Shown in pieces: positions 14,061 to 16,361 of a stretch of 44,161 nt of DNA. The DNA is from Halocatena pleomorpha (GTDB taxonomy: Archaea > Halobacteriota > Halobacteria > Halobacteriales > Haloarculaceae). The translations under genes were made by a program, and so were the position numbers. The DNA lies in contig NZ_RRCH01000006.1 of the NCBI RefSeq assembly GCF_003862495.1, positions 1 to 44,161 on the forward strand. Direction: 5' to 3'. The notes beneath the pieces were generated by a model, which did not search any database, was not told where the DNA came from, and saw nothing but the letters and a program-made list of their open reading frames with translations. Positions within the stretch are counted from its first letter, which is position 1; each line of letters begins with the position of its first letter.

Positions 14061-14549
14061 ATGGACACACGCGCCGAACTGCTCGGTCTACTGCGCGAGA
14101 ACGCCCGCTATTCCGTGAGCGATCTCGCGCGTCTCACTGGCCGAGACGAAAACGAGATCGAGGAAGCGATAGCCACCTTAGAACAGGACGGTGTTCTTCA
14201 GGGGTATCAGGCCGTCGTGGACTGGAGTCAGGCCGACTCGGAGCCGGTTCGGGCCACCGTCGAACTCAACGTTGCGCTCGATCGCGAGACAGGGTACGAC
14301 GACATCGCACAGCGGATCGTGAAGTTCGAGGAGGTGCGTTCGCTCCGTCTAGTGAGCGGGGATTTCGATTTCGCCCTCGATGTCGAAGCTGATTCGATGG
14401 GTGCGGTGTCCCGGTTCATCAGCGAACAAGTGGCTCCAGTGCCGGAAGTCACCCAAACGGTTACCCACTACGTGATGGAGAGCTACAAAGAAAACGGGAT
14501 CGAATTCGGTGACGGGCACGACGATGACCGCCTGTCAGTCACGCCATGA
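14061..14549 (+). CDS. Lrp/AsnC family transcriptional regulator
   Basis: A 162-residue protein. Residues 1-50 form a winged helix-turn-helix (LLGLLRENARYSVSDLARL then EIEEAIATLEQDGVL). Residues about 65-145 form the RAM/AsnC ligand-binding domain (VRATVELNV, VRSLRLVSGDFDFALDV). Such proteins respond to amino acids and often control their own neighbours. Its stop overlaps the start of the aminotransferase gene (ATGA), so the pair is an operon, and an amino acid or its keto acid is the likely effector. The ATG at 14061 fits the start of the DNA-binding domain. Confidence 0.93.
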   Translation: MDTRAELLGLLRENARYSVSDLARLTGRDENEIEEAIATLEQDGVLQGYQAVVDWSQADSEPVRATVELNVALDRETGYDDIAQRIVKFEEVRSLRLVSGDFDFALDVEADSMGAVSRFISEQVAPVPEVTQTVTHYVMESYKENGIEFGDGHDDDRLSVTP

Positions 14550-15691
14550 CGGGACCGTCGATCGCTGAGCGCGTTCGTCAGGTTCCCCCCTCGGGGATCC
14601 GTCGGTTCTTCGAGTTGGCCGAGGAGATGGATGACGTGATCTCCCTCGGCGTGGGTGAACCGGACTTCACGGCTCCCTCGCGGGCGCGAGAAGCAGCTAT
14701 CAGTTCCATCGAGCAGGGACGCACCTCGTACACGGCCAACCGGGGGAAGCGAGAACTGCGCGAGACCATTGCAGATCACATCGGAAAGTGGGATCTCACA
14801 TACGATCCAGCCGAGGAGATCCTCGTAACGGCAGGGGCGAGCGAAGCGCTCGATCTGACGTTTCGTGCACTCGTCGATCCAGGCGACATCGTCGCCGTCG
14901 CACAGCCCTCGTACGTCTCATACGTTCCGAGTGCCATTTTTGCGGGCGGAACAGTACGGCCTGTCCAAACGAAGGCCCAAGACGAGTTTGTGCTCACTCC
15001 TGAGGTGCTCGAAGAGGCCGATGCTGGGGATGCCGATCTGCTCGTACTCTGTTATCCGAACAACCCAACCGGCGCAACGATGACGGAAGCGGAACTCGCT
15101 CGGGTGGCCGCGTTCGCCCGCGAGCACGATCTCACAGTGCTCTCCGACGAAATCTACGCGGATCTCACGTACGCCGGAGAACACACTTCCATCGCCAGCT
15201 TCGAGGGGATGAAAGAGCGCACAGTGGTGTACAACGGCTTTTCGAAGGCGTACGCCATGACGGGACTCCGATTGGGGTATGCGCTCGGACCAAGCGAAGT
15301 AATCAACGCGATGAACCGCGTTCACCAGTACACGATGCTGTCAGCACCAACGACCCCGCAGTACGCCGCCATCGAAGCCCTCCAATCGTGTGATGCGTCC
15401 GTCGAAGCGATGCGATCACAGTACGACCACCGACGGAAGTTCGTGCTCTCGCGCTTTTCGGAGATGGGCATCGACTGCTTCGAAGCGACCGGTGCGTTCT
15501 ATGTCTTCCCAGAATGTCCGTGGGACGACGCCGAAGCGTTCGCCCAAGCGCTCCTCGAAGAACAGAACGTCGCCATGGTGCCGGGGACGGCGTTCGGGGA
15601 CAGCGGCTCGGGGCACCTCCGTGTGTCGTATGCGACCGGATTGGAGGAGCTTCGAACCGCGATGAACCGCCTCGAACGGTTCTTGGAGTAG
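14546..15691 (+). CDS. class I/II pyridoxal-phosphate aminotransferase
   Basis: A 381-residue fold-type I aminotransferase. Landmarks: SLGVGEPDF near residue 33, TAGASEALDL (cofactor phosphate), CYPNNPTGATMT (substrate carboxylate and PLP), LSDEIYADLTY (Asp to the pyridine nitrogen), FSKAYAMTGLRLGYA with the Schiff-base lysine, and LRVSYATG with the carboxylate-binding Arg. It resembles aspartate/aromatic aminotransferases, but specificity cannot be fixed. Start overlaps the Lrp gene by four bases, so translation is probably coupled. Confidence 0.95.
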   Translation: MTGPSIAERVRQVPPSGIRRFFELAEEMDDVISLGVGEPDFTAPSRAREAAISSIEQGRTSYTANRGKRELRETIADHIGKWDLTYDPAEEILVTAGASEALDLTFRALVDPGDIVAVAQPSYVSYVPSAIFAGGTVRPVQTKAQDEFVLTPEVLEEADAGDADLLVLCYPNNPTGATMTEAELARVAAFAREHDLTVLSDEIYADLTYAGEHTSIASFEGMKERTVVYNGFSKAYAMTGLRLGYALGPSEVINAMNRVHQYTMLSAPTTPQYAAIEALQSCDASVEAMRSQYDHRRKFVLSRFSEMGIDCFEATGAFYVFPECPWDDAEAFAQALLEEQNVAMVPGTAFGDSGSGHLRVSYATGLEELRTAMNRLERFLE

Positions 15692-15819
15692 TGCATCCGC
15701 TTCTAGTCCTGTCTATTCCATTACTAGCCATGGAATACGTATCAATCGGATATCTTTAAGGAATATTCACCCATTACAGGAAGAGCTTAAATACAACCAT
15801 CGTGGTACTTTGTGACACA

Positions 15820-15918
15820 ATGAGCGATGAAACGCTAAAGGACATATCTCACACACCACCAGCGGGAGAGTCGGTTGAACGGGTATGGACCCGAGGAGAC
15901 GAAATGGACGCCGAGTGA
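15820..15918 (+). CDS. 32-residue ORF of unknown function
   Basis: A 32-codon ORF (begins MSDETLKDIS, ends DEMDAE) preceded at 15785-15793 by CTTAAATAC, a good TATA-like box 27-35 bases upstream, which fits a leaderless transcript. Composition is acidic and haloarchaea-like. Its TGA lies inside the sequence that leads into a transposon-end-like hairpin, so the ORF may be the truncated front of a longer gene. No similarity is recognised. Confidence 0.4.
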   Translation: MSDETLKDISHTPPAGESVERVWTRGDEMDAE

Positions 15919-15950
15919 CATCCTCGCCCGTCCTAAAGGACGGGGCTTCC
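15916..15950 (-). mobile_element. solitary IS200/IS605-like right-end hairpin
   Basis: A perfect 7-bp hairpin, CCCGTCC TAAA GGACGGG (15927-15944), is flanked by TGACATCCTCG. Read on the minus strand it is a stem, TTTA loop, stem, then GAGGATGTCA. This is the layout I know from the right ends of haloarchaeal tnpB elements. The hairpin of the IS605-type element at 43383-43402 has the same TTTA loop. No tnpA or tnpB remnant is visible on either side, so it is a solo end, a MITE-like leftover or an orphan guide-RNA-like sequence. Confidence 0.55.
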
Positions 15951-16061
15951 TACAAGGGAAGCCTCACGTCGAGGGAGATGATGCGGGGTAGCGATCGACA
16001 GCGGAGATAGTTGGGGGTTCGAAGTGGGGAAGTCAAGTGGCCCGGCCGCGTCAGTTCTCGT

Positions 16062-16361
16062 ATGGCCAACACCAACGGATCCGAGCAGTCGACAGAAGAC
16101 GGTGACGTGATCGTCCCGCTTTCGGTGTACAAGATCGTTACCGTTTTCTCGACGCTCATTGCCGGGGCCGCAGTCGTGGCGGGGTTCGCTGTGTTGGATA
16201 CGGCGACCCAGCAGGCCCAAGCCCCTGCAGACGAGATCAACGTTCCGCTCGCCCTGCTTGGAATCGCGGCGATCGTCACCGGATCGGCGGTGTACGTCTT
16301 CTCAACCCGATTCCGGACCGCTGGGATGGGAATGGGAAACGCTAAAGACGACGGTGACTAA
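16062..16361 (+). CDS. small haloarchaeal membrane protein (DUF7315-like)
   Basis: A 99-residue protein with a short polar N-terminus, then two membrane helices (residues about 24-45, ending VAGFAVLDT, and 60-81) and a charged tail. It appears to belong to a haloarchaea-only family catalogued as DUF7315; that label is from memory. It lies 9 bases before another two-helix protein on the same strand, and both converge on a third small membrane gene, so the three may act together. Function unknown. Confidence 0.75.
   Translation: MANTNGSEQSTEDGDVIVPLSVYKIVTVFSTLIAGAAVVAGFAVLDTATQQAQAPADEINVPLALLGIAAIVTGSAVYVFSTRFRTAGMGMGNAKDDGD

Follow-up and report, generated by a model that had tools for sequence, protein, structure and literature searches.

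A transposase-free IS605-type mini-element probably inserted antisense at the end of an intact haloarchaeal microprotein gene, over its stop codon

Results

Genes and features of the locus

The DNA analysed (the window) is a 44,161-nucleotide stretch of the Halocatena pleomorpha genome, in which a short open reading frame (ORF) adjoins a hairpin. The genes and features around the hairpin are as follows.

14546-15691, + strand: gene for a class I/II aminotransferase, 5' of the microprotein gene (PF00155, E = 1.1e-71)
15787-15793, + strand: TATA-like box TTAAATA of the microprotein gene, read by eye
15820-15918, + strand: complete 32-codon microprotein gene, MSDETLKDISHTPPAGESVERVWTRGDEMDAE, with its stop TGA supplied by the element tip
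15915-16006, - strand: full extent (92 nt) of the terminal-only IS605-type element as preferred here; right end set by the conserved tip, left end inferred from CTAT
15915-15978, - strand: part homologous to the right ends of tnpB elements (matches of 95, 92 and 90% to C30, G003, and C18 and C19)
15927-15944: near-terminal palindrome CCCGTCC-TAAA-GGACGGG, seven uninterrupted base pairs closed by a TAAA loop
15944-15963: second stem-loop of the right end, GGCTTCC/GGAAGCC, from RNA folding; base 15944 is common to both stems
15979-16006, - strand: possible left-end remnant, 28 nt, inferred; the stretch is unique in the genome
16007-16010, - strand: candidate target CTAT (A-TAG on the + strand), the putative displaced original stop, from joining the flanks
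16062-16361, + strand: DUF7315 gene, the downstream synteny anchor for the empty site (PF23997, E = 2e-27)

The 32-codon ORF is very likely a real microprotein gene. Its product has matches in 19 of the 59 genomes searched, its own included (E ≤ 0.001), and in all six congeners. A haloarchaeal core, KDVSHTPPxGExVxxVWxRG, runs through the window protein (15820-15918) and those of loci L017-L035; none of the Pfam and NCBIfam models matches it. Congeneric orthologues are 31-41 codons long: 32 in G003, where the protein ends D-V-E-stop and no hairpin follows, 31 in G005, and 41 in both G001 and G004. The same DUF7315 gene lies downstream in G003 and G005. At two other loci of the genus (L017, L022) the gene follows an aminotransferase gene, as in the window, while a form of it lies between ketol-acid reductoisomerase and aconitase-family genes at L032 and after ketol-acid reductoisomerase at L034.

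The hairpin is present at 15927-15944 as the sequence-only reading had described it, and TGACATCCTC forms its left flank on the + strand. No other such hairpin occurs in the window, even with up to three mismatches allowed; none arose in 100 shuffles, and the exact form CCCGTCC-NNNN-GGACGGG occurs once in the 3.65-Mb genome (61 contigs). The GGCTTCC/GGAAGCC stem is also present in tnpB right ends. Folded as a 113-nt minus-strand RNA, in which the second stem-loop precedes the hairpin, the segment reaches -39.1 kcal/mol (z = -2.25).

The right end of a tnpB element, without tnpB

Read from the other strand, the segment had been taken for the right end of a tnpB element, and comparison with the rest of the genome bears this out. 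Over 63 nt it shows 95% identity to C30:15769-15831, where a tnpB element of the same genome ends. The ends of the tnpB elements on contigs C18 and C19 match it at 90% over 60 nt; a copy in the congener G003 has 92% identity and no detectable TnpB. Because these three tnpB elements of its own genome (90-95% identity) share the end, the hairpin with its flanks does have genomic counterparts. The window and C30 copies differ at 4 of 64 positions, two of which are the two sides of one hairpin base pair.

The element lacks a transposase gene, again as first described: the hairpin segment is too short to encode one, none adjoins it and no TnpB-like sequence lies within 1500 bases on either side. 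Elsewhere in the genome the TnpB domain (PF07282) has matches, at 14 places in all. The minus strand also matches the Rfam family HgcC (RF00062; E = 2.4e-4, model positions 1-130), but with 30 bits it does not reach the gathering score of 50 bits for membership. Genome-wide, the model gave 30 matches at E ≤ 1, all below the gathering score, and nine of them, the window included, have no TnpB-like sequence in the surrounding DNA; one of the nine, on C15, is weak (E 0.6). The match on C4 has only a marginal TnpB match nearby. Our literature search found no paper that treats HgcC together with TnpB.

The element on C30 (C30:15769-17389) is an intact tnpB element, and its left-end palindrome resembles its right-end one; such like palindromes at both ends are raw material for deletion of the core. 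Two contigs start within right ends of this kind (C5:26 and C21:26); it thus seems that the assembly breaks at these repeats, which probably leaves full copies undercounted.

Sister elements, target site and extent of the element

Short copies in the same genome consist of CTT..., one palindrome, then GAGGATGTCAC, and nothing else. At least six copies of this mini-element of about 48 nt, with its single palindrome and TCAC tip, were found (loci L188, L191, L193, L197, L199 and L201, on contigs C1, C21, C23, C22, C11 and C14, respectively). Empty sites in relatives were fully aligned for three of them (C11, C14 and C22), and in all three the element stands exactly 3' of CTAT, with no target duplication. 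Ungapped reading across other right ends gave TCAT (C19, C30), CTAC (C35, C39, C5), TTAC (window, from G003) and CCAT (C45), among others, and no readable target at C2, C18 and C23. Since the relatives behind several of these targets may have mutated since insertion, and three sites were unreadable, the consensus YYAY is provisional.

The right tip of the window element is TCAC at 15918-15915. The sequence-only reading had placed the TGA of the ORF inside the element, and indeed it lies at 15916-15918, within the tip, so that GAG-TGA (15913-15918) spans the element boundary. At the other end, 15979-16006 starts with CT, as the sister elements do, and is otherwise dissimilar to known left ends. 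We also considered a left boundary at a CTAC just right of 15986 (in G005, TAGCG follows the last sense codon); the CTAT at 16007-16010 was preferred because the three fully aligned sister sites all show CTAT. A CTAT could occur by chance within about 60 nt, and the window element is possibly a truncated remnant. The unit was found once in its genome; a terminal-only IS605-type element (PATE) may be single-copy.

Deleting 15915-16006 in silico leaves the identical 32 residues, followed by TAG. At the hairpin-free site G003 reads GAG-TAA and G005, which is one codon shorter, GAG-TAG. In the comparison with the empty site in relatives, suggested at the outset, the orthologues lack the hairpin and the 3' flank is too diverged for a clean join.

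A probable exchange of stop codons and its other cases

The complement of CTAT is A-TAG and that of the tip TCAC is G-TGA, so antisense insertion into NNA-TAG always yields NNG-TGA, and under the genetic code the change from NNA to NNG is synonymous for all sense codons but ATA. More generally, the provisional target YYAY, mostly CTAT or TCAT, reads in complement as a purine plus a stop, and TCAC at the tip reads as G plus TGA in that frame; an antisense landing at a gene end would therefore renew the stop and, as a rule, leave the last codon synonymous. In IS608, the target is TTAC and the right cleavage site TCAA; their complements likewise contain TAA and TGA in a common frame.

Every CTAT or TCAT target produces a stop triplet in that frame, so we counted a case only where a real gene ends there. 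By this rule 4 of the 18 TCAC right ends found at the loci examined in the genome lie antisense on the stop of a real gene: the microprotein gene, ndk, a DUF3054 gene and cutA. For ndk the genome has GAG-TGA and G003 GAA-TAG (PF00334, E 2.8e-57), for the DUF3054 gene TCG-TGA against TCA-TGA in G003 (PF11255, E 5.3e-24), and for cutA GAG-TGA against GAG-TAG in G005, with the stop at the same position (PF03091, E 1.3e-6). The cutA gene, at L179 on C35, stands beside a tnpB element and is 64 codons long with an internal part missing; it has about 100 codons in G003 and G005. The other 14 right ends end no real gene and, judged by eye, some of them seem to lie inside opposite-strand genes and others to be intergenic. 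Four further frames were rejected as cases. Those at C21:26 (115 codons), C39 (177 codons) and C14 (108 codons) look by eye like antisense shadows of genes on the other strand, and the C39 frame is open for only 7 codons in G003; that at C5:26 (17 codons) is too short for a convincing gene.

Frequency of landings on stop codons

A second set comprised all 46 places outside the window's own genome among the matches listed for one right-end pattern in a search of 243 genomes. The antisense frame ending in the tip's TGA was open for more than 100 codons at 13 of the 46, and the other two frames at 3 and 8 (13/46 against a pooled 11/92: one-sided Fisher p = 0.018). Codon-position G+C looked gene-like by eye in 10 of these 13 frames; eight of the ten had a Pfam match at E ≤ 0.001, some of them weak, and in two the domain reaches the profile end near the C-terminus (TauE, residues 94-352 of 358; FilR1, 126-254 of 265). 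Two of the ten, L239 and L262, have CTAT 99 and 52 bases before the element end and no TnpB match. About 10 of the 46 right ends would thus be stop landings.

As a yardstick we used a crude gene map of the 44-kb window and counted sites that are non-genic or at stops. Antisense stops made up 2 of 41 such CTAT sites and 31 of 339 YTAY/TCAY sites, an expectation of 5-9%. Against these two rates the combined 14 of 64 gives p = 2e-6 or 0.002, and the window's own genome alone (4 of 18) p = 0.01 or 0.08. As genes were called with the data already in view and the yardstick map covers 44 kb, the excess is a lead and not proof. It would arise equally from a preference for stops and from selection against landings elsewhere.

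Discussion

Origin of the element

Our analysis indicates that the hairpin belongs to a transposase-free, terminal-only (PATE-like) derivative of an IS605/IS1341-type tnpB element, which probably landed antisense on the stop codon of an intact microprotein gene. A Y1 transposase acting in trans would have inserted a single-stranded copy of the element on the 3' side of a YYAY target (either CTAT or a variant of it), whose complement consists of a purine and a stop codon. With GTGA as the complement of the tip, TGA would have replaced the original stop, by the preferred reading TAG, and the Glu codon would have stayed a Glu codon. Such an insertion would be neutral for the protein and so able to persist, and it would have left two stem-loops in the 3' untranslated region of the microprotein gene. 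Several observations count against this account. No homology to other left ends can be recognised in the left end, and its CTAT may be a chance occurrence; the site reads GTAA or GTAG, instead of ATAG, in the two nearest hairpin-free copies; the HgcC match stays below its gathering score; and most other read-across insertions lie off the stops of clear genes, some of them seemingly within genes.

The strongest rival, which we consider plausible if somewhat less than likely, is that the segment is a decayed 3' remnant of a full tnpB element that lost tnpB and its left end in place. In its favour, the 28 nt past the homologous part are unlike any known left end, and other such remnants seem to exist: two places without detectable TnpB (G003 C1:894528 and C2:4433 of the window's genome) carry, by eye, sequence like the 3' part of tnpB elements. 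What speaks for a complete element instead is a CTAT exactly where such an element needs its target, and joined flanks that restore the exact gene end. The stop exchange would be valid under deletion in place as well.

The sequence-only reading had also raised the possibility that the hairpin was captured as a terminator. The hairpins stand directly at the stop codon and the + strand of the region folds to -46 kcal/mol, which would suit a terminator or a 3' stabiliser of the microprotein mRNA; the z-score of that fold is only -1.83, however, no U-tract was seen by eye after the hairpins, and orthologues in relatives do without a hairpin. We therefore regard such a capture as unlikely. Slightly less likely still is an orphan guide (omega) RNA, in which a minus-strand transcript would associate with a TnpB from another source, such as the C30 element. 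That TnpB would cut insertion-free alleles, and the element would thereby maintain itself in a polyploid cell. RNAs of this type are expressed from tnpB elements in Halobacterium, according to the accessible text of PMC12558985. The 95% match with an intact tnpB element at the right end, the good fold and the hairpin base pair that is changed on both sides relative to C30 are all consistent with a guide, but the accompanying tnpB gene is gone and no obvious minus-strand promoter for the segment was seen by eye. Finally, that the insertion shortened a longer gene, as first proposed from the TGA inside the element, is ruled out by the hairpin-free orthologues, which are about as long, and has a negligible probability: the ORF is complete and conserved, so the element did not truncate the gene and would only have exchanged its stop codon.

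Relation to known elements and possible significance

The nearest known counterparts are the terminal-only PATEs of Haloquadratum walsbyi, such as the 52-bp derivatives of ISHwa23 and HqIRS46; in the accessible part of PMC3119063 these 52-bp palindrome elements are said to have arisen from IS605-type transposons through loss of the core. As far as they are described there, they share with the window element a haloarchaeal host, the absence of a transposase, an IS605-like near-terminal palindrome, the absence of inverted terminal repeats and an origin from tnpB transposons. The 48-nt sister elements fit that description closely, whereas the window copy has both right-end stem-loops and no clear left palindrome. 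IS1341-type tnpB elements with omega RNA (sotRNA) right ends share the 63-nt right end at 90-95% identity, but here tnpB is absent. A PATE-like element of Halanaerobium hydrogeniformans likewise combines a complete right end with a left-end remnant and has no transposase gene; according to PMC7290912 it differs in being bacterial and in its length of 271 nt, which includes 58 nt of tnpB and a hairpin at the left end. IStrons, too, are derived from insertion sequences and insert harmlessly into host genes, through RNA splicing according to the available sections of PMC4227781, whereas the window element would do so by renewing a stop codon.

We found no description of this stop exchange in a literature search that took in few subscription journals, and the accessible parts of PMC3119063, PMC7290912, PMC2817692 and PMC4227781 do not mention it. 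The window element itself is one more copy of a relic type that is already known, and it is its manner of becoming harmless that may be new: the rules of target and tip ensure that a stop codon hit antisense remains a stop and that the last residue nearly always stays the same. Harmlessness of this kind would help to account for the persistence of tnpB elements and their relics in dense genomes, and would predict where to look for them. We tentatively propose, as a minority possibility, that stop codons serve as safe harbours for haloarchaeal IS605/IS1341-type elements and their mini-derivatives, with the pairing of target and tip shaped, or at least kept, by its harmlessness.

At one of the loci outside the window's genome, L239, the palindrome loop of a mini-element seems by eye to contain another inserted palindromic sequence, which may be likened to the SMR insertions reported in Haloquadratum.
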